Assembly: GCA_022496805.1 (NCBI GenBank)
Contig: CM040094.1
Span: 19,057,501 to 19,121,500 of the forward strand
Direction of reading: 5' to 3'
Length of the DNA stretch: 64,000 nt
DNA from: Pohlia nutans
Lineage: Eukaryota > Streptophyta > Bryopsida > Bryales > Mniaceae
In this document: positions 8,523-38,254 of the stretch, one piece after another
Position numbering within the stretch: position 1 is the stretch's first letter
Layout of the letters: every line of letters begins with the position of its first letter
Program-made: the position numbers and the translations under genes
Notes under the pieces: generated by a model
What the model saw: the letters and a program-made list of their open reading frames with translations, nothing else
The model's database searches: none
Told to the model about the DNA's origin: nothing

Positions 8523-9083
8523 GATCCTTACTCACGAATGCCTCCTCACTCAATTAAACCCTCAAACTCAATAACCACACTTGTTTTTATAATTTTTTTG
8601 ATAGAAAGTAGCACCTTTGTGCTTTCGATGCCTCTAGTTCAACCCTAAACAACAAATCAGCACCTTTGTGCTCCACACACACCTTCCAACACTCAAATGC
8701 GAAGGTAGCTCACCCAAATTGCAAAGATGTTAACCAAAACACCTCAAATCACTCAATGGAGCTCCCACTACTCCGATTGACCCAAATCAACACCTTAGTG
8801 TTCCCAATCACTCAATGCACGTAATAGACACCTATGTGTCCTTCAATAGCACTAAATCAATGCTCATGGACTTAAACAAGTCCCTCAAAACCCTAAATGC
8901 ATTGAAATTGCTCAAAACCGCACCTTTGTACGCCCAAGTGCATAAAGTAACCCCAAATGAAAATTTGAGCTCTTCAACGCAATGAAACACATGCAACACC
9001 TCAATGCAAGTGCCCAATCACTTAGATCAGATCATAGACCCTCCCTTAGAGCCTCAACACCTCACAAATCACTTGTATGACCA
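8523..9083 (-). other. copia-1 leader, proximal part
   Basis: This non-coding stretch lies between the gag start and the MULE-A insertion. It contains repeated short phrases of the form CACCTTTGTGC or CACCTTAGTG about every 40-100 bp. Similar phrases occur in the copia-2 leader. The rest of the leader, up to the primer-binding site, is at 25337-25583. No other gene is seen here. Confidence 0.6.
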
Positions 9084-9198
9084 CGGGAATGCTAGGATGT
9101 GAGCCTAGAGAGGAGAGCCTGAGCCTCTGAGAGCCTGAGAGCCTAGAAAATTTTCACTTTTTTTTCGTTTTTTTCTGTAAGGGACCTATAACCGTGGA
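9084..9198 (+). repeat. MULE-A left end (partner-gene side): TIR, heptamers, subterminal motif
   Basis: The TIR begins CGGGAATGC. It is followed by iterated GAGAGCC/GAGCCT units (about 9101-9146) and, about 100 bp in, by CCTATAACCGTGGA at 9185-9198. All nine MULE ends visible in the window have this same plan, so the repeats are candidate binding sites for the transposase or its partner. Confidence 0.75.
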
Positions 9199-9630
9199 TT
9201 CAGCGCGCGTTGAATTTGGGTTTAGGTTAAACTTCAAATTAGACTTTTAGTTACATGTACGCAAATAGTTTATGAAAAATTTAGGGTTTAGGTATCAAGG
9301 GATATCGTTCGACCATTGAAAAATTATACATGAACAAGAGAGTATACAAATCAATGACGTTGGATAGTAAAGTTTAGGATTTTGGGTTTAGGGTAGTACA
9401 ACACGGGTGGCATTAAATTGGGTTTAGGTTTAGAACATAAATGTGTAATTGGTATAATTCACATACTACATCTATGCAAATTAATAATGAAAATTTGAGG
9501 GTTTAGGGTTTAGGGTGTAGAGATTGAACATTCAAAATTGCAACATGAACAAAGGAGTGAACAAATCAATGAGTTGGAGAATAGAATGGTTAGCAATGTG
9601 AAGTACAACACAAATGTAAAAATCCCAAGT
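9199..9630. other. AT-rich subterminal region with telomere-like motifs
   Basis: It is non-coding. It contains several GGGTTTAGG or TTTAGGGTTTAGGG motifs (about 9228, 9283, 9372, 9419 and 9499), which match the plant telomere repeat and the telo-box. The same motif cluster recurs in the subterminal regions of MULE-B, B' and C. Confidence 0.6.
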
Positions 9631-9653
9631 AGTGGCCCTTTTAGTCTCACTAC
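9631..9653 (+). promoter_or_regulatory. conserved 23-nt motif downstream of the partner gene
   Basis: The motif begins AGTGGCCCTTTTAGTCTCAC. It lies about 55 bp past the stop codon of the MULE-A partner gene. The identical motif is found 60-90 bp past the stop of the transposase gene in MULE-B, MULE-C and MULE-B'. It may belong to the 3' end-processing signal or be a regulatory RNA or DNA site; its role is unknown. Confidence 0.55.
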
Positions 9654-12600
9654 AAATATCAAATAGAAAGTAGTACAAATATGTGGAGAGAACTTAAAAG
9701 TTCCTCTCAATCATCACTAGAATTACCGGTACTAGTAGACCCTGAGTAAGAGCTAGATGTAGAGCGGCTCGGTGAACAAATACCATCACAATCAGACTCC
9801 TCAGCCTCATCATCAAAGTATACAAGTGCATCAGAATTCAACACCTTTGGCTTTGGATTGTGATCCCTAATACCATGTCCTGCAAGAGCCTGTGCAATAG
9901 GCTCAATGTAGCATGGCAACTGAAAAGGTTTGGGTGGGCTCTCAAGAAACTCTGGCCTTGCAAAAAATGGCCTCTGCACGGTAGAATTCGTGGGCTTCAT
10001 TTTTCTGTACAAAGAAAAGAAAATGAACATGAGAACAAGGTGATCAATAATTTATTAAACAAAGCATCTATTGGAATGTTTAGGATCAAACTTACTTACT
10101 GAATCAGGATTTCTTCAACACTCGAACAACCGCTGATGGAACTGCGTCTGGATCCTCTGATGCAGACGATGATGCACTGACTGGCTCGGGTTCAAGTTGA
10201 CGGGCACGCCGCATAGACAATAGCACCCCATCAAACAGCTCTTGGTCCTCTTCCAGTGCCACAAGGTGGCGTTGCACGCGGCGGCATGCCAACAATGACG
10301 CACCTAAAACAATGCATGGAACAAAAATACATGCAATAGTTATAAGTAAAAAGTGAACGAGAAATAGAAACAAATAGAAATAATGGAAATATGTTGAAGA
10401 TATTTAATTCAAGAAATATATAGAAAAAATTGATGTTATAAAATTAAACCTGTCATAGTGGTGCAATCCAAGACAACATCGTTGGGGCGAGAAGTAGCCT
10501 CAATCAACATCTGTATGAACTGACTATCCTTCTCACGAGGACCTCGCCAGGGCTTAATTCCATTCATTTTTTGGGAACTCTTGGTGGTGAAATTCTGTAA
10601 CATATCGTCACAGGCCACATCTAATCCGATAGCCTCAAGAGCTGGGATAGATTGAAATGCAAACCGTCCTCCAGCAACCTCTGGTAACTCACGAACTAAG
10701 AGATACACTCCAAACCGCTGTGTCTGCATCATATAACCAAAAGAATTAGTTGATAGAAAAAGCAAAACAATATTGGAAGAAAAAAAACTAGATAGTGGAT
10801 GAGAATTTACCGTCTTGAGATGGTTGACTGGTGATGCCAAATGAAGCCTATTCATGCAAGTCCAATCTTTAAACAACGTAAAGCCCGTTGCTTTACTGTA
10901 ACCAAGAATATTAGCCTTGGTAGATTGTCTGTATGGATGGATTACGATGATAGCGCCATCATCAATCAAGTGATTGTCTGCAAAGTCAAAAATCGGGTCA
11001 AGCCAGTCATCTTCTGCTGTATTCTACTCTGGAATCTGACCTGGCGGATTTGAGATAGTGGGAACTGGAAGGTTCTCAGGCATGTCCACAAGAATCAGAT
11101 CAACACATGGATCCCTGCAGGGCTCTCCTTTGAACACTCGCGGACGGTCCGCTTTGTGCTGCAAAACAAAACAAACACAAATTAGTAAACCGAAAAATCC
11201 AAGCAGAACAAAAGAAAATAATTGAATTATAAATTGTCAAAGAAGTATGACAAGCATTTTACCTCATCCAAGAAACTCTGAATCTCCACAAACACCTTTG
11301 GGAGAGAATCATCTTCGTTTTGTGGAAGAGCTGCTCCAAGTGAGGTGTTGAGGACCAATTCATCGATCTGCTGGTCCTCTCCTAAGTCTACCAGCTCAAG
11401 AATTTGGCCACAAAATACCTTGTCTTGTGAAAGCTCCAAGTATGCAGCATCTCTCTTGGTTCCCCGCTGCTCTTGGTTCTGGTGCTGAGATTCTGCATAA
11501 ACAACACTAGAAGAAGAAGGCTTTGGGACTTCTTGTACCTTTGGATTCTTCTTCTTCTCCTCTTTTTTGGCGATCTTCTCAGCTTGTTTGTCAATCCTGG
11601 CTTGCTCACGAGCGGCTACCTTCTCTTCTTGTTGAGTAATCTTCATGGCCTTCTTCTTGTCTTCAGCTTCAACTTTGGCAATGAGTTTAAGCCGTGCCTC
11701 CTCATCAAGCTTGCCTTACTCACCAACCAACAAGGCAGGTGTATCGGCAGTCTCAGCTGAGGATTTGAGATCCTTCTCATCTGCGTGAACAAAACCCAAC
11801 CCACAGTCCAAGTACCACCCAACCCCCTTGAGATGTGTGCTGGTCCACGTCTTCAACTGTAGTGGAGAAAACATGCAAAACTCAGAACCCCGATCCATCC
11901 AACTCTCAAGAAATACTGGAAGATCTGTCTTGGAAATTGCCTTCTTCTCGAGTAGCTCATGCATGAAGTACCTGTAGACATAAAATCCTGAGCAATTAGT
12001 ATTATAATTTGATGCAACATTATTTGCAATTATAGGATAAAGAAGTGTACAACTTAAACCAAGTGTGACTGAAAGAAACATACCTGTAAACTACACGTTT
12101 GACCACGAGATCAGTACCCTTAAAGTCCTTGAAGGCAACTAATTTCTTGAAGTGGTCAGTCCCCTTGAAAACGTTAAGAAATGCTTTGTCCCAAAGCTTC
12201 ACTCTCCAAGACTCTATGAATTGGGGAAGTGTCTTAGGCCCACTTGGGACATCCATGTTCAAAGGAACATTGTCTTTGTGGACAATATTTTCAAACAATT
12301 CCGCGACGGAGTCCTCAATCTGCAAACAATAGAATCATGATATTAAAATTGCAGACTTGCAAAGTATGAATGTAGAGAACAAATATACGCAAGCAAAATA
12401 AAAACGAATATAATAACTCACCCCTGCCCACTATGCAGCCCTCACAATAAAAGAAGTGAGACGTTCTTCGTTCACTGGCCTTAAAGGAAACCGAATTGCC
12501 TCTCTTGTATGAATAGAGGAGTTCCACCACCTCAGCCATCGGAGCTTGTGGTGAGGAGGTACAACCGTTGTAGCGATTAATTGAAGCTTGTCTAAAGTGA

Positions 12601-13960
12601 GCTCCAATTGCGAGGCATTCATACTCCAATGCCTCTCAATCTGTAAGCCAAGTCATATATCCACCATGAACAACAGAAAAACAAGCAACTTCAAAAAATA
12701 ATAAATGTAACAAATTGTCTTATACCTCTTGCAGAAACTCGGGCCCAAATGCTGGATTGGCAACGGCAGTCATCTTCCCTAACTTCACAATCAATTTTGA
12801 AGTCCTTTCCTTGATGCCCATCTTCATTGCAGCCGCGATGCCTTCCCGAGTAACGTCTTCAGGTTTGGTCTCCTCACGATACACTTGCACAGCTAAATCA
12901 CCAGCAGCAGCAATATCTTGCTGTGAACACATCATTGTTAGAAAATTACAATGAGTTCAATGTAAAAAATGTAATTTCAAGCAATCAAGGTATAGATATG
13001 AAACATACCCGAAACATTAGAGCCGTGAATACATCTGCTTGCAAGGAGCACCATCCTCTTTTAGCAGAGTTTTGACACCGGTCCATTTCCTCCCGACTCA
13101 ACAACTCAGTGAAATAATCTAGAGGCATAGTTCCAAATTTGCGAACTTGGTAAAGTTGATGAACCAAGTTTGTTTTCACGTGGGAGAATTCCGTCTGCCT
13201 GGAAAAAATGATTAGTGAACTATTAGACATAAGCGGTGAACATTAGAAAATCCATGAATCCAAACGAGTCTAACATTTGATTGATGAGTGGAAGATTTTG
13301 AAGATAATGTACTCACTTGTTGATATCATTCATCACGTTCATGAGAACTCCAATTCGTCCCTTTGTCTCCAAAATGATCGTGTCCACCGAATAGTGCCAT
13401 GATTGGACATTACTGTAGAGTCTAGTGATATGGTTCATCCATGCGATTCTACGATGGTTACCGTCGCAAATGAAGAACATCTTACCCTTCATGAGGCGCA
13501 ATGAATCTTGAGAATCTAAAAACTCATCAAATTTGTCACTCTCTGCTTCCCAGATTGGTCCCCATTCACTTCGATGTTTGGATGACACATGCTCTCCAAA
13601 ACCTTGCTCGTTCGTAAGAGAAACATAGAAAACACAAGCACCTTCGCGGTAGCCATGCACGAATTCTTGCTCAAGCTTCACGAGATCACATTGCAAAGTA
13701 GGCCTTACCATAGGCATTACGACAAGGCGGCAGAGTGGAATGTTGTGTCGTGAAATGTTGACAGGTTGCAAGCGAAGTTCAGCAAGTGCTGCAACCGTAT
13801 TGATCTTCTGTGAGCGCCGTATGTCGTCTTCGCTAATTCCATCCACAGTCTGGACAATAGAACTCTCCTCATCGTCTTCGTCACCATCGTCACCAATCCC
13901 CGGTTGAGGAGTGAGACTATCCTCTCCATCGTCTGAATTGTACTTTGGTGTCTCGAGATC

Positions 13961-16900
13961 CTGCATGCGCAAAAGAAACGTTTGCACCAAATTTGAGATT
14001 AGTATAAATCAAGTTATTTTATAAACCATTGCAGTCAAGTCCATAATGGAGAATTGATGACGAGCACAATTGAAAAGAGCAAGCCTGAATATCCTGCCAA
14101 TGGACCACAGGGCCAATATCAACGTGGCGATCACAGACCAGCTCAACACGAACGTTCTGGACCATCTCAGCACGAACAACAAGGACCATGTAGAACTCAA
14201 ATATAGATCCCACGCGAAAACACGCAGAGGTCGCATGCTGGCCTAAGAATCTCTCCTTCATCTCTACCGTCGGCCCCGAGGGCACACCACGTCCACCATG
14301 CATTCACCCAGAAAACCGCATCAAAATATCATGGGACTAGTACGAAGCAATCCAAGAGGGACTTTAAAAGGCAAGGGGCCGACGCCGGCATGAAATTATC
14401 TTACAATCTGACCATCTAAAGCTACAGGAACTCCGACAAACTCGCATGGCTTAACCCCCAGCCTTTGCCCAAATGTGGCACATGTAGCACATCCATCTGG
14501 CTGAGGGTGCTCCAAGATAGGGCTCGGGCTCGTCAAGTGCCGCCACACGTGGCCTATCACACCCCCCTCTAGACAACCATCGGCCCCGACGGCACTCCAC
14601 GACCCCAGCACTTCCACACGCACGTCACGCAACGAAATCAAACTTTGGCTCAAACCTTAGAGCTCGAAAGAGGCCATTGTGTCCAACATTTTCATCACAG
14701 CGGGGTTCAACAACACGAGAGTTCATCACAACACGAGCACATGGGGAGGGCTTGTCCGCTATGCCATTCCCGTGACGACAGTGGCACGGCACGAGGCGCC
14801 AACAGTGGCCAAACCCCAACTCCCCCAATCTACCGTCGGCCCCGAGGGCACTCCACGACCCCCACGCACATTCACACGCCCGTCACGAAACCCAAGCGAG
14901 GTCTAACCAGTGTGCCCAACACTGCCGCGACAGAGGGATGCTCAACACGTTTTGAGCCTCATCATCACAAGCGTTCATCACAACACGAGCACTCTCAAAC
15001 AACATGCAATCCACGACTTGGCCAAGACAGTAGTGTGGCTTGCAGTGTGCGCATCACTGCCTCGTCACGAGGGTTTTGCTAACGCTTGGGGACTCCACAT
15101 CATGATAAATCCAGAACCACGAGCAACTTGACATCACGAGAATCACGAGCAACTCGACATCACGAGCATCACGAGCAACTCGACATCACCAGCAACACGA
15201 GCACCTCAACATCACGAGCATCACGAGTATCACGAGCAACTCGACATCACCAGCATCACGAGCAAATCACGAGTAACTTGTCATCACGAGACTCCAAGGA
15301 CTGGTTCCCAAGATCATGGCAGAGCTCGCGTCAAAGCGAGTGCTTTCCAACACCGCCGTCACCTCCACGGTGGTGCAAGCCCCACCACAAATCCAAGCTG
15401 CACACCAGCTCACAAGTAGAGAGCTCGGCCATGACATGTGGCTCGAGTTTTGCCCAGAGCGGAGTCGCACCAAACCACCGTCGGCCCCGAGGGCACTTCC
15501 TCACCCCCCCACATTTGCCCACAACTCGCACTACTTTCAAGCCTGAAGTGCCCATTGTAGGGCTCTCACTTGGCCATGACAGTAGTGTGGATTGCAGTGT
15601 GCGCATCATTGCCTCGTCACGAGGGTTCTGCTAACGCTTGGGGACTCCACATCACGAGAAATCCAGAACCACGAGCAACTTGACATCACGAGAATCACGA
15701 GCAACTCGACATCACGAGCATCACAAGCAACTCGACATCACCAGCATCATGAGTATCAAGAGCAACTCGACATCACCAGCATCACGAGCAAATCACGAGT
15801 AACTAGTCATCACGAGACTCCAAGGACTGGTTCCCAAGATCATGGCAGAGCTCGCGTCAAAGCGAGTGCTTTCCAACACCGCCGTCACCTCCACGGTGGT
15901 GCAAGCCCCACCACGAATCCAAGCTGCACACCAGCTCACAAGTAGAGAGCTCGGCCACGACGTGTGGCTCGAGTTTTGCCGAGAGCGGAGTCCCACCAAA
16001 CCACCGTCGGCCCCGAGGGCACATCCTCCACCCCCCCCCCCCCCCACATTTGCCCACAACTCGCACTACTTTCAAGCCTGAAGTGCCCATTGTAGGGCTC
16101 TCACTTGGCCATGACAGTAGAGTGGCTTGCAGTGTGCGCATCACTGCCTCGTCACGGGGGTTCTGCTAACGCTTGGGGACTCCACATCACGAGAAATCCA
16201 GAACCACGAGCAACTTGACATCACGAGAATCACGAGCAACTCGACATCACGCGCATCACGAGCAACTCGACATCACCACCATCACGAGCACCTCAACATC
16301 ACGAGCGTCACGAGTATCAAGAGCAACTCGACATCACCAGCATCACGAGCAAATCACAAGTAACTTGTCATCACGAGACTCCAAGGACTGGTTCCCAAGA
16401 TCATGGCAGAGCTCGCGTCAAAGCGAGTGCTTTCCAACACCGCCGTCACCTCTACGGTGGTGCAAGCCCCACCACGAATCCAAGCTGCACACCAGCTCAC
16501 AAGTAGAGGGCTCGGCCACGACGTGTGGCTCGAGTTTTTCCCTGAGCGGAGTCCCACCAAACCACCGTCGGCCCCGAGGGCACATCCTCACCCCCCCCCC
16601 CCCCCCCCACACTTGCCCACAACTCGCACTACTTTCAAGCCTGAAGTGCCCATTGTAGGGCTCTCACTTGGCCATGACAGTAGTGTGGATTGCAGTGTGC
16701 GCATCACTGCCTCGTCACGAGGGTTCTGCTAACGCTTGGGGACTCCACATCACGAGAAATCTAGAACCACGAGCAACTTCACATCACGAGCATCACGAGC
16801 AATTGGACATCACGAGCATCACGAGCACCTCAACATCACGAGCATCATGAGTATCAAGAGCAACTCGACATCACCAGCATCACGAGCAAATCACGAGTAA

Positions 16901-18248
16901 CTAGTCATCACGAGACTCCAAGGACTGGTTCCCAAGATCATGGCAGAGCTCGCGTCAAAGCGAGTGCTTTCCAACACCGCCGTCACCTCCACGGTGGTGC
17001 AAGCCCCACCACGAATCCAAGCTGCACACCAGCTCACAAGTAGAGAGCTCGGCCACGACGTGTGGCTCGAGTTTTGCCCAGAGCGGAGTCCCACCAAACC
17101 ACCGTCGGCCCCGAGGGCACTTCCTCACCCCCCCCCCCCCCCCACATTTGCCCACAACTCGCACTACTTTCAAGCCTGAAGTGCCCATTGTAGGGCTCTC
17201 ACTTGGCCATGACAGTAGTGTGGATTGCAGTGTGCGCATCACTGCCTCGTCACGAGGGTTCTGCTAACGCTTGGGGACTCCACATCACGAGAAATCCAGA
17301 ACCACGAGCAACTTGACATCACGAGAATCACGAGCAACTCGACATCACGAGCATCACAAGCAACTCGACATCACCAGCATCACGAGCACCTCAACATCAC
17401 GAGCATCACGAGTATCACGAGCAAATCACGAGTAACTAGTCATCACGAGACTCCAAGGACTGGTGCCCAAGATCATGGCAGAGCTCGCGTCAAAGCGAGT
17501 GCTTTCCAACACCGCCGTCACTTCCACGGTGGTGCAAGCCCCACCACGAATCCAAGCTCCACACCAGCTCACAAGTAGAGAGCTCGGCCACGACATGTGG
17601 CTCGAGTTTTGCCCAGAGCGGAGTCGCACCAAACCAGCGTCGGCCCCGAGGGCACTTCTTCACCCCCCCACATTTGCCCACAACTCGCACTACTTTCAAG
17701 CCTGAAGTGCCCATTGTAGGGCTCTCACTTGGCCATGACAGACTTAGTGTGGCTTGCAGTGTGCGCATCACTGCCTCGTCACGGGGGTTCTGCTAACGCT
17801 TGGAGACTCCACATCACGAGAAATCCAGAACCACAAGCAACTTGACATGACGAGAATCACGAGCAACTGGACATCACGAGCATCACGAGCAACTGGACAT
17901 CACCAGCATTAGGAGCACCTCGACATCACGAGCATCACGAGTATCACGAGCAACTCGACATCACCAGCATCACGAGCAAATCACGAGTAACTTGTCATCA
18001 CGAGACTTCAAGGACTGGTGCCCAAGATTATGACAGAGCTCGCGTTAAAGCGAGTGCTTTCCAACATCGCCGTCACCTCCAGGGTGGTGCAAGCCCCACC
18101 ACGAATCCATGTTCCACACCAGCACATGGGAATGAACCAAGCTCATGCATCAAATGCAGACATGGTCTTTCTCACTAAACCCCAAATGGTTTCCCAACAC
18201 ATTAAATCCTCATGACAACATACTCAACGAGGGGTAGCATTTTCTTAC
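13961..18248 (-). other. 4.3-kb intron of the MULE-A partner gene, filled by satellite
   Basis: This intron joins exon 3 (ends at 18249) to exon 4 (starts at 13960); both junctions are phase 0. It holds the 540-bp satellite array plus flanking unique sequence. A minus-strand open stretch at 14019-14303 looks partly protein-like but is not needed to keep the frame. Confidence 0.55.
14640..18130 (+). repeat. satellite array, about 540-bp unit, six full or near-full copies
   Basis: The phrase CTGGTTCCCAAGATCATGGC or a close variant recurs at 15301, 15838, 16388, 16925, 17460 and 18015, a period of 535-555 bp. A diverged copy precedes and a truncated one ends near 18130. Each unit contains a microsatellite-like block of CATCACGAGCAACTCGA phrases (length varies), a poly-C run of 7 to 20 bases, and the motif CCGTCGGCCCCGAGGGCA. 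Most length differences lie in the first two. Long open frames on both strands here are by-products of the repeat and are not genes. Confidence 0.92.
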
Positions 18249-18619
18249 CTCGTCTGTGGGCTGTAAGTTGCCTGATCCAAGCTGGGTCCTCGCCATCCTT
18301 TGCCCCTTCGTCTCAGGTGCAGATTCCTGATCCATACAACATGTGATTAATGCTCATATATATTTTCACGAAACAAATGATTGGCTTTCAAATTCCTTGT
18401 CTTCATGAGTGCCATTCACATTTGTAAAGTAATCACGCCTTACCTGGTGCATGAGATTCTCATCAGGTGGGTGAGGTCCCCTCCCTCCCGCGGTCGATCC
18501 TCTGGTCTTCCTCATCGCGGCCTGGATTGTGCAGTGGCGAAATAAAAAGGCAGTGAGAAGACGTATTCAATAGTGCGCTACTGATGTTGCAAGGTCAGGT
18601 AGCGCGCTACTGATCCGTG

Positions 18620-19030
18620 CAAGGGTAAAACTTGATGGGAAACAAAGGAGCTCGTGACACAGCAAGACAAGGGAGCTCGTGAGACAAAAAGACAGAGAGA
18701 CAAGGGAGCTTGTGAGACAAAAAGACAGGGAGACAAGGGAGCTCGTGAGACAAAAGGACAGGAGGACAACGGAGCTCGTGAGACAGAGAGTTAGGGAGAC
18801 AAGCCAGCTCGTGAGAGAGGATGAGAAAGTAGCTCGTGTGTGGAGATTAGGTGAGCCAGCTCATTCGAGGAGAAGAACGAGCTTGCTCGTGAGACCGGGA
18901 GCTCGTGACACAGCATGACAAAGGCGCTCGTGAGACTGACAGAGAGGGAGAGCAGACAGCTCGTGAGTGGCTTGTGCGCGGAGATGAGCTCGTGCGCGGA
19001 GATGAGGTTTAGGAGCTCGTCACAGCAGGA
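18620..19030 (+). repeat. degenerate minisatellite (GGGAGCTCGTGAGACAAAAAGA type)
   Basis: About ten imperfect units of 30-40 bp, each centred on GAGCTCGTGAGACA, lie between exons 1 and 2 of the partner gene. The phrase CACGAG/CTCGTG is shared with the 540-bp satellite, so the two arrays may have a common origin. Confidence 0.75.
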
Positions 19031-19753
19031 ACTCCAGCATCAAGGTGCTTGAGCGCGCCGATGAAGTGGCACCCTGAAATCACCCCTGTCGTACCCTAAT
19101 TTTCTAAACCCTAACCCTCAGCTAAGCTATCACCCTAATCCAATGCATTCATGACCGTTGCACGGGTCCATGTGTGCATATGAACGATGTCCTCTATTAC
19201 ACCTAACTATATGACATGTTCCAGATATCATTCTTTAGGATCTGAAAAACAATATTATACAAAATTGGTCACTACGTTCAAAATTAAACTAATGTCCTAA
19301 AGAATCTAATTCCCTCAATAATTCACGAAAGTACATAAACGTCTTCAAAATACAAAGATGGCATACTATATAATCAAAGTACAATATTCCATTAGTGGAT
19401 AGTATCTTACAATGGATGGTGTAGCATGGGCCAGGACCCTTTCGACGTTGTCTTCGTTGATAGCCTGTTTCACGTCTACCGCTTCTTCAACTTCTTGCAA
19501 GCTCGCCAAATTCGTCACTTCTTCTCCACTAAAATCTTTTCTCACACCCTCGAGATTCTCAAGAGTAGACAGTCGTGACATGTGTTTCGTGGATCTCATC
19601 CTCGAGCGTCAGTCATGTACTATGCAGTCCACGTGAACGCTGGAAGAAGTTGACATTCAATATTCACTACACTGCTTGAATTTATACGAAGGGTGAGAGA
19701 ACTAGATTATCTCTTTGTGATCCAACTCAAGCTTTGTCTAAATCTAAACACCA

Positions 19754-20229
19754 GTGATGGATGCTTCGGAAGTTCAATGTGAAGAGAAAGTGCTGGACTT
19801 CGAAACCATTGAGAGATTGATGATGGGAAACGGAAAAGACTATCCCGTAGTGTCAAGGAATGGGCGTCAGGTGCAGATGATGAATGCCATCAACAGCTTG
19901 GAGGGTGCAGTGGAACTCCGGATGGCGAATTTCCAGACATTTAGGACTCCAAGATCGACCTCGCAACGATTTTGCTAGACAAAGATGTTCTATTTTCCTA
20001 CCGAGTCCCCTGTGGAATATGGGACGCCCGCCCTCGACATCCTCTTGTCTGGAGGCTCATGTGGTCTCATAGTGTTTGTCAACTCATGGGACTCCCCGAT
20101 CCTTGCAACCTTGAAAGCCAGGGTGTTCCAATTGTGCCAGAAGACATTGCAGCTGCCGTCCAAGACTTCTTCGACGATAAACCGAAGCCTCCGTTCTGGG
20201 GTTGCGTCTCTAGCGTCATGCCATTCTAG
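19754..20229 (+). pseudogene. unrecognised ORF between the two divergent genes of MULE-A
   Basis: The frame starts MMDASEVQCEEKVLDFETIE at 19754 and reads well to about 19940. It then shifts frame, and a coding-like stretch continues from about 19946 to a stop at 20227-20229 (LLDKDVLFSYRVPCGIWDAR, then a tryptophan-rich end with FWGCVSSVMPF). I recognise no domain. It is absent from the equivalent 0.5-kb gap of MULE-C, so it may be a captured host fragment or a decayed upstream exon. Its start is only 154 bp from exon 1 of the partner gene, head to head. Confidence 0.35.
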
Positions 20230-20879
20230 GGCTCCTATGATTGACAACACTTTTGTGCTACAGTAGACGAGGTTGCAGCTTGGATGTTTATGATTAAAAT
20301 CAGAATATTATAGTATTGAACAGGAAGTTTTAGTATTGACAGTAAGGTACAATACCTATGAGTTATATATTCTTTGTTATTTTGTTGTGATGAAACCAGG
20401 TGACTATCACAAAAAGTAATTATTTTGTCAAAGTATAAATAAGACCGAACGACAAGTTCTTCTCGTTAATATTCTATCACTTTACAGTGTATGACTCAGC
20501 CAACGCCAAATTAGATTCATCCCAATCTCATTACATCCACTCATTAACTTTGAACTGCGAGCTGATGCATGCGGCACACTACATTCCGTCTCTATTTTAA
20601 TTAGCTAGCGCCGTATAAAACTTTGACGTTGTTTAGATTAGTCGTTCGGCTAAAGTGAAATTGATGTCAGTTGCAAGGCGGCTCCAATCTTAGACCTATC
20701 TCACCGTCTACATTTTAATTTCTACCGTGACTCTGAATATAGTGACTCCATCGGAAACGACACCTAGTTATATTCTCAACCCAAATTCAATGCCCCTCAC
20801 AATCCATCTTCTCGTGACTTCTTTGCTGAATTATTTCTCTATCTTAACCAACTAGTATCTCTCTAGCCCGATCGTTTCT
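20230..20879. other. AT-rich upstream region of the MULE-A transposase
   Basis: I see no coding sequence. The region should hold the transposase promoter. TATAAATAAG-like sequence occurs near 20435. Confidence 0.35.
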
Positions 20880-23800
20880 ATGGCCAGCATTTCCGTAAGA
20901 GGTGACGAGGTCCCACTAGTTCTACCAGTAGGTGAGACTGGCTTTGTCAAAGTTACCTCTAAACTTCTCTACATTAGGTTCGGTCTAGCAGAAAGCTCTA
21001 TGATGGTCGAAGAAGAGGTCCTTGAGAAGTATGGAATAGTCAAAGAGGCCATATTACAGTCTAGATGTGAAGATGACGAGGGTTTCTACTGGCTCCTCCA
21101 TCCGGGTCAGTACAAAGCATACGGTCTTACCCCGCAGCAACTGGCTGCATCTACTGAAATTTTAGCCCCTGCCTCAGATACTTCCACTGTAGAGTTGCCT
21201 CACGCACGTCGTGATAGGAGGCAAGTTGCAGATCCAACTCGTTCCGTTGCAGATATTATGGTCAATCTTCGTAATGTGAAACGCGAGAGTCTAGACCCCA
21301 TCATTGAGTTGTCCAGTGAATGTGAGGGGGAAACACTATCACTACCCTCGCAACTTCCAAACTTGAATGAACCAGCTCCTTTTATTGCCAGTCAAGCTAC
21401 TGTCCGCACCCCCGCTAATAGTCCATCTTCCTCCTCATTTTCCCTCCCTCCTCTATATCCTAGTAGTTCATAAGATTGCCCTAGTGTTATGCAATGTCTG
21501 CGGAAGCTGTCTAGTGTTCCTGGCTCTCGTAATGAACTTGCTCAAATAGATTTTGATCGCATCGAATATCACAAGGTGCAGTTCCTTCCTTCGCAGTTTG
21601 ACGGGGATGTGGTCTTTGAGCTACCACCGGTTTCTGGGCGTGTACACTCTTCCGGAGCCCGGAGCATGGAGGGAATGGACAAGCGTTATGATGGCCACAC
21701 ATGGTGCCGCACCACGACGTCCAATATCCACAACCCCTTCGGTTTGAAGTTCAGGAGGTCGGCGTGCGTTGGACACTTGCGTTGAGACAACGAAGACTGT
21801 GACTATCTTGCTAGAACGTATAAGAAGAATGAGACAGAGTGGACTGGTACAACTAACTTCCCATTCGATATTCGTCAAAGCCCTCCTCCGGAATCTTCCA
21901 TTGCATGTAGAGTTTGCAAGAAAGCCCCTTCTTGTCGTGACTCTTGCACGGCGCGGGTGTATTACGTGCTCAATGTGAACGACAGGTCTCGTGCATGTAT
22001 CCATTTGGGCTTCCATCGACATCCCGTCGCCGATGGACCGTGCAGAGAGTCCATGGAGACCATCACCGGCTTGATTGCATCGGAGGTGGCGAAGACTCCC
22101 ACCGCCAAAAACGCGGCCATCGCTCTTGCAGCTAGCAAGGAGTTCCTCGAGACGTTTCTTGTCCACAGTGGGCTAGGCCCAAAAGAGATGCTCCAAGGAC
22201 AGGAACTGGACAAGGTGATGGACAAGTTCCGCATGCTCAGCTCTCCGAACGTTCGAAACATGATCGCCACTTTTCACGCTCAGGGCAAAGGCAAAGGCGA
22301 GATTGATCAAATTCTAGAGATGAAGCGGCATGCGAAGATCGAGTTTATACACGACAGTGTATTCCCGGGCCAAGGCCAGGAAAAGGTATATCTCTTCAAA
22401 CTGCTCGTGCATGGCCCCGGGAGTGGCGTCGACCTCGTGAGAAGGATGCAACCTGGAGGTGACCTCCAAAATTGCTTCGTCATGTTCGATCACGTGAAAA
22501 GAGTGAAGCCATGGACCACCATTGCTTGCCATGTTTATGATTCCACCTACTGCAAGGTGATGACCATCGCTGTCTGCGATATGCAAACGGAAGGCACTGA
22601 GGGACAACTTATATTTTGGCGTTGCCTGAACAAAGTGATGGACAACAATGGCGTACCGAATCCAAACTTTAAAGGTTTCATGTGCAACAGTGCACAAGCA
22701 AACTTCAATGCAGTTCGCATTGTCTATGGCTCGGGCAATCCTGCCGTGCCTATGGTAGACCGTGAAAGGACTTGTCTATTCCACTGGGCGACGAGCATGC
22801 ACAAGCACACTGAGAAGCTGATCGCCAAGAACTTCCAGAATCAGCACATCAGGCTTTGCAAACAATATAAAGATGCCCAAACAATGGACGAAGCTGACAG
22901 GATGTACCTTGAGTTGAGAGCGTGGTGGTACTCGTCCGGTGCTGCTTCAGAGGATGCGATTCGCGAGCTTGAAGACTGGCTGGCCTTTTGGCATTTTCGC
23001 TACCGTCAATGGGGCGGTTTCATGGAAACGGTAAAATATCAAAAGCACCCTTTCACTTCACGTGGATGTATAGAATATGTTGTAGTCCCTCGATGTCGAT
23101 GGTCCTTCCCCCGTAATTGCCTGCATTTTGACGGGGTCAAGTATTGACCCCTCGGGCCCGACGGTTGCTTAGACACCTACCACTGTAAATAAATTTAGGG
23201 GAACAAAGGGCACTTAGAAAAGAGCCGTCGGCCCCGACGACTGTTTTGATTTTTATTTTATTTTTTATTTTATTTTTTTTGCAAATCAGCAAATCAGAGT
23301 TAAAAAAATAAAACAAAAAAAAAAAATTCCTTCAAACGTGATTATTTATACATCTATCACCCCAACGTAATTATTATTAAAACTTTCCTAAGCCGTGAGA
23401 TCAAAACTGTTTTGTGCAATAAGATAAATTGGGTGATGCAATTTCTGTAGAATCTTACCGCAGATGAACTAGCAGACATCCCAACATGCAACCTTGCAGA
23501 GACCGTTCACAACAAGTGGATGCAAGCCTCCGGGAAGCGAGGCTTGGACCTCTTTGTCCCACCACCGATGATTGGGCCCGTGCTTTCATGCAGATGACCA
23601 ACTACAGAACATTTCTATGTGGAAGTCCGTCTGGAACTGGTCTGTCCAAGCACGATCTAAAACTGAAGAGGGCTATGGCATCCCATGACGGCAAGAAGAT
23701 CGCCGAAGCAATTAACAACATGCCTGGGGCTGCGGAGGTTTCTACACGAGTTCCACACTTGGAAGGGGAAGAGGTGTTTGGCTCGTCCAAGAGAAAGCTC

Positions 23801-24829
23801 GACATGCCAGTGGGTTGCGAGGGAGATTCTCATCGCCCTGACAAGGTGAACTTCTCGCATCCACGTGTCCAAACACGATCTGCCTCTGCTAGAATGAACT
23901 CGGAGCAATCACCAAGATCTACTTCTCCGATTCCATTCACAACTAGGGTGTTGGAGACTGACTGTGACACTTCAAAATGGCACATTGCAACGATGTCACA
24001 CAAGTCCAAAAAGCAGTGTCACGCAGTGCAAGCGGGGAATGGCAACAAGTGCAAGATGTTGATTGTGAAGGGCGGAAAGGCTACAGCTGCCCCAACCTAC
24101 CGAGGCACTAGGACGGAGTACAAAGGGACTAAACCTCAGACAGCTGATTTCTGGTTCTGTCCCGACCAAATCGCACGATGTGTCATGGGTCCGAAGCGCT
24201 TCTTTGTCATAGATCGCCCGGAACTCCCGGACGTTTGGCCCGTCCTCTCTGGTACAAACCTCACGCGTTCGGAGATCCTAGAGCTCCAGGAGGCCGGGTT
24301 TCGTCTGCAGTCCACTACAGCCCTTTCGCCTCGACGCCTCTTTACGACGTCTAAGGTGTTTGAGCCGGTGCTCTGGACTCACCCAAGGCCATTGCATGCT
24401 GACAGAGTCCCATCATCTCGAAACGGCAAGAACGTGCGTCGGAACACCAAGGCTCCAATGGAAGCTCACCGCAATCAATGGGAGAGTGCCCGAAACGTTA
24501 AGGCAAATATTCTCCGCGTGAACCTACTCCCCTATCCCGGGCTTGGTGCCATCATCGTGCTCCAGTCCGGGGTGGAGCCCGATGATAATTTGTACAATAT
24601 CACATTGTGCAATTTTCCATCATGTACGTGCCCTCATTACACCAGCATGAACTCTGCAGCTGTTGGGAGGCGTGGCCAGTACGTCAACTGCAAACACCTT
24701 TACTATATCTTTCGTTTCTTTTGCAAGCTGGACTATAAAGTTGACACGTACATCTATGCCCCTACTCTCAGCTTGGATGAGGTTAAAAATATTCTGCTGG
24801 CAGCTGGGATCATCAAGACCGAGGAATGA
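20880..24829 (+). pseudogene. MULE-A transposase (MULE DDE domain plus SWIM zinc finger)
   Basis: Exon 1 (20880 to about 23028) is one frame with two stops (TAA at 21471, TGA at 21783). It has an N-terminal cysteine/histidine region, then the MULE core: CHVYDSTYCKVMTIAVCD (first Asp), GFMCNSAQANFNAVRI and ERTCLFHW (C-x2-H). The second catalytic aspartate is replaced by asparagine; copies C and X keep D there. The intron ends near 23454. Exon 2 starts LTADELADIPTCNLAETVHN and carries a one-base deletion near 23555. Its end has the SWIM finger CTCPHY..NCKHLYYIF and APTLSLDEVKNIL. The enzyme would cut and insert the element; this copy is inactive. It is transcribed away from the partner gene. 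Confidence 0.88.
23029..23454 (+). other. transposase intron
   Basis: The donor GTAAAATATC follows ETV codons and the acceptor TTTCTGTAG precedes LTADEL. The same intron position is kept in MULE-C and MULE-X. It contains CGTCGGCCCCGACG, a palindromic variant of a motif in the 540-bp satellite. Confidence 0.65.
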
Positions 24830-25135
24830 AGAATGAGGACCAGTCTATGTTTAGACGTGGAGACTAGAACTAGCTGCAATATCTCCCTACTTAGAATAGC
24901 TAATGCCCTATATTGAATTGGTTGAAGTACTTGCATGATAACTTTGTCCACTATAACTATGTATTAGAACCAAAAATAAATAAATAAATACTACATATAG
25001 ATCCACATGTTATCTTTCCGTTCTTGGTCTCTTTTAAAAAAGCTCACTTGATGGGGTTCAGTTTCACCCATGTACCCTATAATTTTCCACCTCTGTACCC
25101 TAAAACTTTAACAGTGAACTACTCTAAGTAGTAAC

Positions 25136-25327
25136 CCACGGTTATAGGGGCAGCGGTCATAGGGTACCAAAAATTACTATTATTAGTAAAAAGTCTAAAA
25201 ATAGTATTTTATTTTCTAAAATTAGTGTCATTTTTCAAATTCAGATGGATCCTATGCTCTAGGCTCTCCAAATCCCCGCTCTCCGGACTTGGGCTCTCCT
25301 CTGTAGGCTCGCACGGTAGCGTCGTTG
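25136..25327 (-). repeat. MULE-A right end (transposase side): TIR, heptamers, subterminal motif
   Basis: Read inward from 25327 the TIR is CAACGACGCTACCGTGCGAG. Then come GAGAGCC-type units (about 25255-25305) and two copies of the subterminal motif (CGGTCATAGG at 25154-25163 and CCACGGTTATAGG at 25136-25148). Confidence 0.75.
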
Positions 25328-25336
25328 GTATGACCA

Positions 25337-25602
25337 CAAGTGCATCAAATTGAACGAAACAACGTTCCACTTACAAAAGAGGCTTGGAATAAAAAACTTG
25401 GAAATTCAAAGGAAGAGATCGACCAAGAAGAGTGCTCCCACGTGTGATTTCAGCCCGTGCACACCTCCAGGAGAGAAGACTTTTCCAAAACGCTCCAAAA
25501 TGCTCCCAAAAGCTCCAAATCAACCCCTTCCGCAACGACCTCGAACTAATTGCCTCAATGCAATCAAAGACTCATGCAACACACATGAGTGGGCCCCTAA
25601 CC
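25337..25602 (-). other. copia-1 leader, distal part, with primer-binding site
   Basis: Next to the LTR (25584-25602, minus sense) is GGTTAGGGGCCCACTCATG. It differs by one base from the copia-2 site and matches the anticodon stem-loop of initiator tRNA-Met, not its 3' end, which implies a half-tRNA primer. Confidence 0.7.
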
Positions 25603-26968: not shown

Positions 26969-26978
26969 CTTATATTGG

Positions 26979-27169
26979 CAACGACGCTAGTTTGTGAGCG
27001 GTGAGCAGTGAGCGGTGAGCGGTGAGCAGTGAGGCACAGAATTTAGAGCGGTGAGATCCGGTTTGACTTCGTCAAATACACTAAATTTAGAAAATATTCG
27101 AATATTCGTCTATTTTTAGGAATTGTAGGGACCCATTACCATGGAATATTTATCCCCTATGACCGCGGA
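26979..27169 (+). repeat. MULE-B left end: TIR, GTGAGCG heptamers, subterminal motif
   Basis: The TIR starts CAACGACGCTA. It is followed by five or six 7-bp units GTGAGCG/GTGAGCA (26994-27033) and by CCTATGACCGCGGA at 27156-27169. Confidence 0.78.
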
Positions 27170-27396
27170 ATGGGCCATGGAGAAGTGAAAAATATTGCCA
27201 GAACGGTCTCGTATCAAGGCATTGCAAGGGAAAGAAAATATAGTACCATTGTGATATACGGAGTAGAAGCTTAGAGTATTAGGGTTGACTCAGGAAGATA
27301 CCAAAGTTAGGGTAGGTTTAGGGTTTAGGGTAGAAATCACAAAATGAAGAGTGGAAGTAATACATGCACCGTACACATAAAACTCGTAAGAGAAAT

Positions 27397-27419
27397 AGTG
27401 GCCCTTTTAGTCTCACTAC
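27397..27419 (+). promoter_or_regulatory. conserved 23-nt motif downstream of the MULE-B transposase
   Basis: It is identical to the motif at 9631-9653. It lies about 65 bp past the transposase stop codon. TTTAGGG repeats (about 27308-27326) lie nearby. Confidence 0.55.
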
Positions 27420-27482
27420 CAAAATCAATTCTGGTCATCATAATCAAAAAACATCAATAATTGCCCCTAGGAATGCCATATC

Positions 27483-28594
27483 CTAAGAAGTCAAGGGGGC
27501 CAAGAGCCCACTTTGGTGGATGCGCTTCACTTCATTGAAACTGAAACTGGGAGCGTGGATGAAGTAGTCTACCTCGGAATCAAGACCACATACTTCAATG
27601 AAGACAAAGTAAAGATGCTTGCAATTGGCCCAGTGGCCACGCTTTCCGAGAGCCTTGGTGGCCATCTCCTTGAAATAAGGGCAGGTGCAGGCCGGCAACT
27701 GAGATATAGTCAAATAGTATTGCTGAACAGTTGGTGGAGTGCCGAAATCAAGGGTGACGATGCATCCGAGGGCTGGAGCTGGGATCATGCTGACCTTTTG
27801 AACTTGGCCCTTTAGAGTGAGGGCGGAAGCACAAATTATTGGAGTGGCGCGTTGTGGGCGCCTTCATATTGCGACGGATGTTCTTGCCGGACCTCCGTTT
27901 TGGGAACTCATCCGGGTACGCTGGGGTAACATACGCAGCCAGGTCCACAGGAAGGTGCTGATCAGTGAAGAGCCTCCTTGGTGAGATATCTTCGCGTTGG
28001 GGAAGACGGAACCGAGCATCTTCTAATTGCAACACCTCCTTCCGGGTTAGATTAGTGCCGATCTTGACAGGCCAGATGTCCGGGACTTCAGGCCTAGATA
28101 TAGCCCACTTTCGACGGGTCCCCTTCACACATCTCTCAATATCATCTTTGCAGAAGAAGAATTGCATGCACTCCGTCTTGTTCTTCCGATAATTATTCAT
28201 CATGCCCGTGTACGTTGGTGCAGCAGTGCTCTTTCCATCCTGAACTATACGAGCTGTACACTTCTTCTTCGTCACAGCTTGTTGGGCAAAGCAGGCCTTT
28301 GCGGATTTAGGTGGCAGTCGAGCGATATGTCATTCAGTTTCGTCGCAGGCGGTTTCTTGAACTGCAGTAACGTGGTGCGCCTTCCTCGTAGGAGTGGCGG
28401 CGGTCATCTGTCTTGGAACTTCTGGGACGAGAGAGTCGGTCGGAGAGGCTTATAGTGAAGTAGGAGAATCAATGATTACGGTTGAGGTCCTACTAGACCT
28501 CGTTTGCACACGTGGGCGCGAGATAGATATCTTATCAGGCCTATGCGAGTCGAATTCGGAACCAAGTGGAACGTCAGCCTTTCACTTCAATGAC
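27483..28594 (-). pseudogene. MULE-B transposase, C-terminal fragment
   Basis: Homology begins at KADVPLGSEFDSHRPDKISI near 28590 and continues through stops and a frameshift. It includes QAVTKKKCTARIVQDGKSTA, RCVKGTRRKWAISRPEVPDI and the SWIM finger CTCPYF..NCKHLYFVF, ending in SFSFNEVKRIHQSG. The DDE core and N-terminus are absent, so it cannot be a transposase. It is closest to MULE-C among the copies here. The identical fragment, inverted, is at 46967-48075. Confidence 0.85.
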
Positions 28595-29290
28595 ACGTGA
28601 CGTGTGACGCGTGACGAGTGGTGACGCGTGACGCGTGACGAGTGGTGCGTGACGCGTGATGAGTGGTACGTGACGAGTACGAGTGGTGCGTGTGGTGCGA
28701 GACGAGTGGTGCGTGACGGAGTACGAGTTGTGCATGACGAGTCCTATGGAGTCCCGGGGTGTGTACGTGGCGAGTGGGACAGTGGGAGTCGAGTGGTGAC
28801 GGTGCGTGACGGTGCGTCCCGGGGTGTCTACGTACGAGGGGTGCGTGGCGAATAGGACAGTGGGAGTCCCATGGAGTCCCGGGGTGGTGCGTGCCTCGGG
28901 AGGGAGCCAGCTCGTTACCGAGCTCGTGGTGGCAACTCGTCATCACGACCCGGCTCCTGACCGCGCGAACTGTCCCATTTTGTTGTGACTTGTCCCATTC
29001 CTTCTCGTAATCTCTGTGATTTCTCGAGCTAAGTGTGAGTTGCAACTGATTTCTCGAGCCAAGTGTGACTTTGCTCCCCACGTCGTGACGAGTCAAAAAA
29101 CGCACTTGGATGGGAGCGAGCACCAGCACCATGTCCCACCACTCTGTCCCTTTTATCTGAGTTCCAAATTACATGACCCGGGAGTATGAGTGGTTTTGAG
29201 TGCGGGGCGGGCTTGTCCCGCTCCGTCACGAGGCGCCCTCAAAACCGAGTTGTGATTCTAACTAACTAACTTAGAGCTTGTCCAAGGGCA
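28595..29290. repeat. GC-rich minisatellite-like filler in MULE-B
   Basis: 28595-28880 is made of imperfect GTGACGCGTGACGAGTGGT phrases. 28880-29290 is GC-rich and contains CGAGCCAAGTGTGA duplicates near 29020-29060. It marks the join between the two truncated genes. The arginine/histidine-rich open frames here come from the repeat. Confidence 0.65.
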
Positions 29291-29293
29291 TTT

Positions 29294-29970
29294 CCACTAG
29301 AGCTAAACCGCGCCCCCCCCCACCGGGTCCTAAACTGGCCCGAGTGAAACTGGCCGTCCCAGCGAGGCACGCCACAAGCGAGCCAGCTCGTTACCAAGTC
29401 TCCAGCGGCCGCTCGGTACCGAGCTGCTCCATTTGACGACTACAAATTTGTTTTTTTGCTCCAAACGACTGCAGATTTGTTTTTTTAGATTTTCGACTGC
29501 AATTTTAATCATTTAGGGGCGTGTAATATACCGTTGGAAAGGTATTTTCAAGAGATTTCCAACGGTATATTACACGCCCTGAAATTCCTAAAATTGCAGT
29601 CATAAATCAAAAAAGAAAAATCTGCAGTCGCTATGCGAGCCAGCTTGTTACCAAGTCTCCAGCGGCCGCTCGGTACCGAGCTGCTCCATTTGACGACTGC
29701 AGATTTGATTTTTTGCTCCAAACGATTGCAGATTTGTTTTTTTAGATTTTCGACTGCAATTTTAATCATTTAGGGGCGTGTAATATACCGTTGGAAAGGT
29801 ATTTTTAAGACCTTTCCAACGGTATATTACACGCCCTGAAATTCCTAAAATTGCAGTCGTAAATCAAAAAAGAAAAATCTGGAGTCGCTATGCGACTACA
29901 GATCAGGGTGGTCAAAAGAACCGCAGCCGATTTTGGGTCCGGTTCTTTTCGACCATGTTTTCTACTAGTG
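29294..29970. mobile_element. CACTA-like non-autonomous insertion with tandem hairpins
   Basis: The right end TTTTCTACTAGTG (29958-29970) is CACTAGTAGAAAA on the minus strand. Next to it is a hairpin (TGGTCAAAAGAACC..GGTTCTTTTCGACCA), a typical CACTA-MITE layout. The body holds two tandem units of about 250 bp, each an inverted repeat around GTGTAATATACCGTTGGAAA (about 29455-29635 and 29690-29890). The left boundary is uncertain; CACTAGAGC at 29298 is a weak candidate. Confidence 0.5.
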
Positions 29971-31250
29971 TAGTAATTTAAATTATAATTTTGATTGTTT
30001 TTTCTTGGGTCACGGTTGTACAGCTTGAGGACTCTGTCGCGGCTGAGGTCATAAACACCCTTCTTTGATGACATTCAGATTGACTGGGAAGCCCGTCCTG
30101 ACTTGGATGAAATCAACCAATACGTTGAGAAATGGAGAATCCTTGTCTGGGATCGAGCATTCTACTTTATACTCAAGAAGGCCAATGGCTACTCTAGAAT
30201 AAGTGCCTTCAAAGACCAAAAGGGGACCTCAAATGCCGTCAAACGACTCCTGTACAGGTTTGCAATCCACAAATACCTTCCCATTTCACAAATTCATTTC
30301 ACTTTACAATTGCACTACTCTACCTATGTATTAAAACATTTTGCTTTTGTACTTACAGGTACTTCAATCGCAAACTCCTTGGTAAGGGTGCGATTGATCG
30401 GAAAGCTATGCCTAAGTTTTTTGGTGCATGGATTGACAAGGCAATGCCATCATACGTTTTCACACCAAATCAACTACGATTGTTTAAGCTTTCTGAGCTA
30501 CTAGCCTCGCCTTGGTACCTAGAATGCGCGAAGAATTACTCAAAGCTCGCTTCGAACAAGTATGCACGGAATCTTGCCAAAGGTGATGATTCTTAACAAA
30601 TCGCTTATTGCTCTTGGGGAGCAGAAATTGAAGGAGGGCACAGCTCCAGCTGCTTGGGTTGATATACTAAACTTTGCTAAAACGGTACGTATACATCTCT
30701 ATACTATTTTATCATTAATCCGCATTATGCATTTCATCTAATTCTGATTTCTAATTCTAGAACATAGCCAATCACAATAAAATAATCTTCACCTTCAAGA
30801 GTATTCCACCTTATTCCAAGAAACTATTCATGATTTGAGCCCATTAACATCTACTCTGAGACCATAAAAGTGTTAATAAAGACCTCAAAAGGAAGTAGCA
30901 AGAATACCTTGTATAAGTTGAAAAGTATTTGTTTGCGCGTGACTGCACTGCTGCGTTTCAAGCTTCTTTTAATTATCAAAAACACCTGCACAAGAAGTTA
31001 TATGAGCGATACTCAGATACATCGAGGACTAAGATTAACAAATGCTATGAAAAATACGTGATTCATTATGAGTCTGTTTTTGCTTCCACGTTCCATGCAA
31101 GAGAAACTATGTGCAGACATGTCTACCATTCAGTACTCTAAGTAAAACAGTTGCACATCGACGAAGTGTGGATCGGATACAAAACAGAATCCAACACACG
31201 AAGAGATTAGGTCGTGCCAACTTTGGCTTCAGAAACTGCAAGGTGGTCAG

Positions 31251-31568
31251 TGTTGAAGTAGGATGATTGCGTGGGCTGAAGTTGCTCATAGCCATGCGCA
31301 TTAGCTAGAGTAGATGATGCGAATGAGCTAGACTTGCAACTAGAGAAGTGATACTAGTTAGAAGTAATGAGAATTGGGTCTCCTAAGTGATATGGGCTGA
31401 TCCTAGTGTACTAGGAGTGGAGTATGGGCTGATGTCCCATATGGTTTGCCAAGGGGACTCCCTTGGGTGTGCTACTTAAGAGGGGCAGCCCATGAGTAAA
31501 GATCATCTCTTTCCTATGCATTCCAAGTGTTTGTGTGAGGCTTTGGCATTCTAATCTAACCTTCAATA
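31251..31568 (+). repeat. 5' LTR of copia-2
   Basis: It starts TGTTGAAGTAGG and ends CCTTCAATA. The only difference from the 3' LTR is T in TCCTAAGTG (C in the other). The LTR should contain promoter and polyadenylation signals; none is unambiguous by eye. Confidence 0.96.
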
Positions 31569-31587
31569 GGTTATGGGCCCACTCATG
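31569..31587 (+). other. primer-binding site, initiator tRNA-Met half-molecule type
   Basis: GGTTATGGGCCCAC, starting at the first base after the LTR, is complementary to the anticodon stem and loop (GTGGGCCCAUAACC) of plant initiator tRNA-Met. Most plant copia elements pair with the tRNA 3' end (TGGTATCAGAGC). This arrangement is the one described for Drosophila copia, primed by a tRNA cut in the anticodon loop. Confidence 0.75.
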
Positions 31588-36605: not shown

Positions 36606-36907
36606 TTGCGTGGGCTGAAGTTGCTCATAGCCATGCGCATTAGCTAGAGTAGATGATGCGAATGAGCTAGACTTGCAACTAGAGAAGTGATACTAGTTAG
36701 AAGTAATGAGAATTGGGTCTCCCAAGTGATATGGGCTGATCCTAGTGTACTAGGAGTGGAGTATGGGCTGATGTCCCATATGGTTTGCCAAGGGGACTCC
36801 CTTGGGTGTGCTACTTAAGAGGGGCAGCCCATGAGTAAAGATCATCTCTTTCCTATGCATTCCAAGTGTTTGTGTGAGGCTTTGGCATTCTAATCTAACC
36901 TTCAATA
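36590..36907 (+). repeat. 3' LTR of copia-2
   Basis: 318 bp with 317 positions identical to the 5' LTR. It is followed by the second GTCAG target copy. Confidence 0.96.
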
Positions 36908-37956: not shown

Positions 37957-38082
37957 TCGGTCATAGGACCCACTTTCCATACTAAACCCATTCAAAAATC
38001 ATGAAATTTTACTGCTCACCGCTCACGCTTACCGGTCACTGCTCACCGCTCACAGCTCACTGCTCACAGAATTGCATTCCTG
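37957..38082 (-). repeat. MULE-B right end (partner side)
   Basis: Read inward from 38082 the TIR is CAGGAATGCAATTCTGTGAG. An array of GTGAGCG/GTGAGCA units lies at about 38016-38068, and the motif CTCGGTCATAGG at 37956-37967. The region 37679-37955 just inside is non-coding. Confidence 0.78.
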
Positions 38083-38254
38083 CTTATATTGGTAATGATT
38101 GCAAAATTACATAGTCAACTGGACAATTTTCTTTACTTATATTGGTAATGAACTGCCTTTGTCCATACAACTCGAATTTGTTAACTGTGCAATCTCTGTG
38201 ACTACTCCTTTGCTGTACCAAAATTCTATAGATAGTAGTTGGGCTCCTACAGTC

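Follow-up and report, generated by a model that had tools for sequence, protein, structure and literature searches.

The closest described counterpart of the system treated here is the Ectocarpus element Sola1-1_Ec32, a 21.5-kb transposon which, in the accessible text of a 2025 paper, encodes, opposite its transposase, a protein of 1104 residues that combines a ParB-like domain with a domain of the N4C/N6A methyltransferases (PMC12477816). The same text proposes that such proteins modify the DNA of their own element by N4-methylcytosine (4mC) or N6-methyladenine (6mA), and points to similar proteins in transposons of green and red algae (Iyer 2011; Petroll 2025; both as cited by PMC12477816). 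Among Mutator-like elements (MULEs), the available parts of the literature describe VANC of the Arabidopsis VANDAL elements as a sequence-specific anti-silencing factor (PMC10398659, PMC5735166) and maize mudrB as apparently needed for integration (PMC6446971). Here we describe MULE-A, an element of the moss Pohlia nutans located in a stretch of 64,000 nucleotides of contig CM040094.1 (assembly GCA_022496805.1, positions 19,057,501 to 19,121,500; this whole stretch is the window, and coordinates are those of the window unless a contig is named). MULE-A carries a long partner gene on the strand opposite to its transposase, and we report the structure of this gene, its membership of the element, its homology to beta-class DNA methyltransferases, its conservation and the loss of its catalytic motifs.

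Like the Ectocarpus Sola1 protein, the MULE-A partner is encoded on the opposite strand, has about 1100 residues (1104 there, 1106 for the ten exons joined here), contains a methyltransferase-type domain and has been proposed to contain a DNA-binding domain as well. The two differ in their hosts, Sola1 there and Mutator-like here, and in that the Ectocarpus protein is a predicted maker of 4mC or 6mA, whereas the catalytic motifs are lost in the moss; moreover, a ParB-like domain is described there and is not demonstrable here, the comparison being one of descriptions only. The likeness to the green- and red-algal proteins is likewise one by description in PMC12477816. With VANC and mudrB the partner shares the position of second gene of a MULE, but the accessible texts describe no relation of either to methyltransferases, and the likeness is by role only (PMC10398659, PMC5735166, PMC6446971). 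No MULE with a ParB-methyltransferase partner was among the papers listed in literature searches that mostly did not cover subscription papers. The novelty claimed in the first-pass annotation, which knew of no MULE with this partner, is lower than assumed, since the transposon protein as such is in print for Ectocarpus Sola1 and, by citation, for green and red algae (PMC12477816). The kind of protein is already known; the MULE host and the conserved loss of the catalytic motifs are new.

The partner gene of MULE-A is defined by its exons 4 to 13, which run on the minus strand from 13960 down to 9707, have GT-AG borders and join in a single frame of 1106 codons and a stop, with four internal stops. 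Exon 4 (13317..13960) holds the DGNHR region and is followed by exon 5 (13009..13198), which is present in all ten of the genomic copies read at length (see below), exon 6 (12726..12920), which is partial in some of them, exon 7 (12422..12640), which contains one stop in the MULE-A copy, and exons 8 (12084..12319) and 9 (11263..11971), both with homologues in a second element, MULE-B, and the latter again with a stop in MULE-A. The methyltransferase-like part comprises exon 10 (10811..11158), with DMPENLPVP at the motif IV position and a stop, exon 11 (10450..10723), with the motif X-like PWRGPREKD and the first half of motif I, and exon 12 (10096..10303), with the second half of motif I and the remaining stop, while exon 13 (9707..10004) has a weak homologue in a copy termed Y. 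When the exon pattern was shifted, 965 controls contained 49 stops on average and at least 21, and the other two frames contained 48 and 87; with four internal stops against this mean, a chance open frame was rejected. The motifs quoted in the first-pass annotation were found as stated. Of the 13 exons that it placed opposite the transposase, the last ten hold up on splicing in silico, whereas a trial join of all 13 loses the frame and exons 1 to 3 are without support from any further copy within the window. The putative exon 1 (19411..19599, minus strand) consists of an open frame and a donor site only, and exon 2 (19203..19241, minus strand) is equally putative. Between the proposed exons 2 and 4, at 15016–18126, lie some six units that are each about 540 bases long and 90–93% identical. 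A search with the whole partner protein gave no hit at E ≤ 0.001 among 7992 scored candidates, from which a length filter leaves out exon-sized predictions.

MULE-A as a whole spans 9085..25327, between the two units of a perfect 10-bp target-site duplication, and its terminal repeats are imperfect. The duplication, GTATGACCAC, flanks the element at 9075..9084 and 25328..25337 and occurs on the plus strand of the window at these two sites only. The terminal repeats lie at 9085..9134 on the partner side, where the end reads GGGAATGC, and at 25278..25327 on the transposase side, which reads CAACGACGC in the inward direction; one end inverted matches the other at 77–81% across 37–44 columns. A run of CCCTAAA-like units, which we take to resemble plant telomere repeats, was read by eye at 9490–9520, near the partner-side end. 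The transposase is encoded on the plus strand, divergent from the partner on the minus strand, in exon 1 (20880..23030, two in-frame stops, start and donor placed by eye) and exon 2 (23451..24829, one frame break, acceptor and break placed by eye), the latter with a CxC...CxH SWIM-like motif. As modelled, the MULE transposase is RNase H-like and resembles the IS256 type, the structure model of its relative P0121 matching ISCth4. No solved MULE transposase was among the structure matches listed for that model, which leaves families outside the listing possible. At E up to 1, Pfam transposase and SWIM models matched none of 31 relatives; a SWIM match in one open reading frame of the window was weak (E 4.8), the CxC...CxH motif itself having been seen by eye. 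Searches with the transposase against viral contigs and against genome contigs gave nothing useful. Together, the 9–10-bp duplications, the terminal repeats and the IS256-like transposase model bear out the assignment to MULEs.

The same arrangement is found outside MULE-A. Among six elements with both ends seen, five have 9–10-bp duplications that enclose the transposase-partner pair, namely MULE-A (10 bp), MULE-B (9 bp) and the genomic copies C3 (10 bp), C19 (9 bp) and C13 (9 bp), the duplication of the last three being offset by one base on the partner side; in all five the partner lies on the opposite strand inside the DNA transposon. When the genome (697.8 Mb in 332 contigs) was searched with exon 4, at least 150 scored matches with 76–100% identity, MULE-A's own included, were obtained among 1507 candidates, a number far beyond chance, and about 106 of the 150 scored were without a stop when counted by eye. 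One copy of exon 4 with 100% identity (G000:C10:18982390-18983034, against 13316–13960 of the window) is found about 88 kb upstream, on the same strand of the same contig, which suggests that a duplication took place recently or an insertion very recently. Ten genomic copies, chosen among the high-identity matches listed without stops, were read at length, and nine contain all ten exons, some of them partial, while the C18 copy ends inside exon 8. Copy C3 is near full length (exon 4 at 209 of 215) without a stop in any of the ten exons; in C7, C13 and C14 no stop was seen either, but their exons are partial. In six of the ten (C11, C14, C19, C6, C3 and, partially, C13), a close transposase that shares at least 88.8% identity with that of MULE-A is encoded divergently within about 9.7 kb. 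C23 and C7 have a distant transposase (about 42–51%), divergent in the former and on the same strand in the latter, and none was found within the search range of C18 and C20.

Selection was estimated from the ratio of nonsynonymous to synonymous substitution rates (dN/dS) in ten copies including MULE-A, with C18 left out of this set and of the motif counts below; pairs in which synonymous change was saturated or sites were too few did not enter the estimates, so that exon 4 used 44 of 45 pairs. The median was 0.066 for exon 4 (range 0.023–0.41), 0.126 for exons 5 to 9 (0.07–0.74), 0.142 for the methyltransferase exons (lowest pair 0.09), 0.44 for exon 13 (lowest pair 0.26) and 0.129 for the whole partner (0.10–0.82), and the transposase core gave 0.06–0.38 (15 pairs from six copies). 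From these low values in partner and transposase we conclude that both genes are kept by selection, exon 13 least so.

By sequence, the C-terminal part of the partner is homologous to the beta-class N4/N6 DNA methyltransferases, as had been proposed at first pass from its motif order IV-X-I. The Pfam model PF01555, with a cut-off of 26.7 bits, is passed by copy C3 (1.1e-6, 29.2 bits), missed slightly by copy C13 (26.1 bits) and matched below the cut-off by MULE-A (4.8e-5, 23.8 bits), while the MULE-B exons alone gave no Pfam match. PHROG methyltransferases matched at 7.9e-6, and sequences in the PDB at 1.5e-6 (DpnA), 3.3e-4 (CcrM) and 5.9e-4 (MboIIA). In an alignment of a two-row profile, A1, with CcrM, the motif IV position of the partner falls on ADPPYNL. 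Among 50,697 phage records searched by tblastn, 245 were colinear at E up to 1 and 30 covered at least 80% of the query, and every one of the 30 rows listed is annotated as methylase or methyltransferase; the C-terminal half gave nothing useful against viral contigs or genome contigs.

Neither the catalytic motif IV of active beta-class enzymes, (D/N/S)PP(Y/F/W), nor their S-adenosylmethionine-binding FxGxG is present in the partner. For the motif counts, the ten copies were joined by seven of eight further ones sampled for the methyltransferase stretch, L042 being without exons 10 to 12, L037 contributing exon 10 with a part of exon 11, and motif I being incomplete in L040. Exon 10 is present in 17 A-type copies, and motif IV reads DMPEN in 16 of them, DMPKN in the remaining one and DPPY in none; in MULE-B it reads DVPDN. 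Motif I reads [LF]DCT[AT][MI][TR]G (LDCTAMTG or close to it) in the 15 readable A-type copies and LDYNASTG in MULE-B, with FxGxG in 0/15 and not in MULE-B. Bacterial and phage fusions of ParB with N6_N4_Mtase, such as the Wolbachia phage WO methylase (L001), share with the partner the beta-class homology, the order IV-X-I and an N-terminal DG.xR motif, but 120 bacterial ParB-methyltransferases have DPPYN in 106 cases, a close variant in 8 and no pattern match in 6 ([DNS]xP[YFW]N in 114/120), and LDxFxGxG in 119. Since the altered motif is nearly unchanged between copies and dN/dS is low, it probably represents an inherited state rather than decay. With both catalytic signatures missing in all readable copies, the earlier term methyltransferase-like is right, the homology being upheld, and methyltransferase is probably not.

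For the N-terminal half, a ParB/Srx region had been suggested, and this found no support in the searches. DGNHR stands at the place of the DG.xR motif of ParB in MULE-A, in an exon 4 homologue termed C and in 8 of 9 further copies, with VGNHR in C7. Pfam ParB models matched none of 12 exon-4 sequences, one of which (L003) is identical to that of MULE-A, and ParB_N, which the phage protein does match, was not recognised in the MULE partner. The best profile-profile alignment to bacterial ParB lands on DGNHR, but shuffling gives scores as high in 123 of 200 cases; without a library match, and with a score no better than shuffles, ParB by profile was rejected. The structure model of exon 4 (predicted local distance difference test score 35) is too low for a reading of the fold. 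With the N-terminal half as query, one phage record was returned at E 9 and viral contigs gave nothing useful. At the level of the motif, this half may be a ParB-like DNA-binding module.

Within the window, MULE-B (26979..38083) has its transposase on the minus strand, its partner on the plus strand and a nested Copia element. Its 9-bp duplication, TTATATTGG, stands at 26970–26978 and 38084–38092, exactly at the ends, and occurs further at 26455 and 38137 (four times in the window). The terminal repeats match over 71 columns at 75%, with the duplication included, or over 52 at 83%, and the ends resemble those of MULE-A, CAACGACGC on the transposase side and a GGAATGC-like sequence on the partner side. 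The MULE-B partner retains, on the plus strand, homologues of exons 8–9 (30055..30593), of exon 10 (36963..37298, DVPDNLPVP, two stops) and of exon 11 (37408..37680, acceptor by eye). It is 43% identical to that of MULE-A and alike in position and orientation, and intron positions 8/9 and 11/12, read by eye, are common to both. An inverted copy of MULE-B at 98–99.8% identity, B', lies inside another transposase gene (43361..48567). The recurrence of the partner noted at first pass thus holds for B and B' (E 1e-20 to 1e-35), for the exon 4 homologue C (53296..53748, plus strand, 39% identical, 5e-22) and weakly for the exon 13 homologue Y (63723..63998, minus strand; E 0.013 with the whole query, 1.7e-4 with a short Y query). 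Fragment C had been assigned to MULE-C, but it ends 11 bases short of another element, whose CAACGACGC end is at 53759, and therefore lies outside MULE-C, as a third partner copy of greater age that was cut by the element ending there. In comparisons of A with B and of A with C, the exons share 33–48% protein identity and, pooled, differ by 0.42 at nonsynonymous versus 0.83 at synonymous sites, the latter saturated.

The Copia element nested in the MULE-B partner gene spans 31238–36908, with a 1370-aa open frame at 32493–36605, and sequence 75–79% related to it lies at 4033–9057. Elsewhere in the window, an open frame of 817 aa at 57512–59965 matches DUF7869 (E 1.1e-43), and open frames at 38255–39743 carry DUF4216 and DUF4218, domains of EnSpm/CACTA type that are typical of plants and hint at, without proving, a host of the plant lineage.

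Replacement of the active-site letters in a gene that is nonetheless selected suggests a DNA-binding helper or anti-silencing factor, not an ordinary enzyme. We therefore favour, with a probability of about 0.5, a selected pseudo-methyltransferase that may act as an element-specific DNA-binding or anti-silencing partner, or as an aid to transposition. The large Mutator-like, IS256-related DNA transposon family encodes its transposase and, in divergent orientation, an accessory protein of about 1100 residues, and the C-terminal third of the latter descends from a bacterial-type beta-class DNA amino-methyltransferase. Motif IV (DPPY to DMPE or DVPD) and FxGxG have been lost and the altered letters are held by purifying selection. 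Under the favoured reading, the protein would bind the DNA of its own element without methylating it, helping the element to escape host silencing or assisting its transposition. The anti-silencing role, comparable to that of VANC, is one that we infer. A more specific version, in which a bacterial DNA-modifying enzyme turned into a non-catalytic, sequence-specific shield or reader of element DNA that counters silencing across hundreds of copies, is put forward tentatively. Several observations weigh against the favoured reading. A close divergent transposase is absent within about 9.6–9.75 kb in four of the ten copies, the MULE-A and MULE-B partner copies are both broken, and a target-site duplication was not seen by eye at the ends of B'. 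The constraint on the family may be overstated, because the ten were chosen among the best matches, most of them with open frames. In single pairs, dN/dS rises to 0.79 for the methyltransferase exons and to 2.2 for exon 13. Profile A1 matched the PDB more weakly (best 1e-4 to 2e-4), and ParB in the N-terminal half is unsupported by Pfam, NCBIfam, PHROGs, PDB and hhalign searches. Finally, catalysis is probably lost as judged from the motifs alone, and purifying selection on the fold could also mean an enzyme with unusual motifs.

Such an enzyme, marking its own element with 4mC or 6mA, would account for the homology and for the strong constraint on the methyltransferase exons, and is in line with the self-modification proposed in the accessible text of PMC12477816; with DPPY in 0/17 and FxGxG in 0/15 copies and both missing in MULE-B, against 114/120 and 119/120 bacterial relatives, we consider it unlikely. 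Rather than an epigenetic factor, the partner may, with somewhat better prospects though still doubtfully, be a transposition cofactor acting in target choice or synapsis, or else the silent member of a methyltransferase made of two parts. MuB of bacteriophage Mu is a model for the former and METTL14, the silent half beside METTL3, for the latter. The head-to-head arrangement with the transposase in six of ten copies as well as in MULE-A and MULE-B, a constraint like that on the transposase and the apparent requirement of mudrB for integration, as given in the available part of PMC6446971, agree with such a cofactor. MULEs are described in the same source as capturing host gene fragments (PMC6446971), and a captured host gene, carried as Pack-MULE cargo without a role in the element, was rejected as very improbable: position and orientation are alike in MULE-A and MULE-B despite 43% identity, their two common intron positions agree, at least 150 matches were scored in the genome, and the median dN/dS is 0.13. 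That the methyltransferase likeness is a chance reading of motifs is scarcely credible; the MULE-A copy does fall slightly below the Pfam cut-off and the MULE-B exons are without a match, but C3 exceeds the PF01555 cut-off, and several libraries, PDB matches and colinear phage matches agree.

The ParB-methyltransferase proteins of transposons form a class that has hardly been described so far, and modification of their own DNA has been proposed for them. If the reading as a selected pseudo-methyltransferase is true, this class would also work, or would have come to work, without methylation, and it would extend into a further transposon superfamily, where at least 150 natural copies are present, one of them free of stops in all ten exons read.

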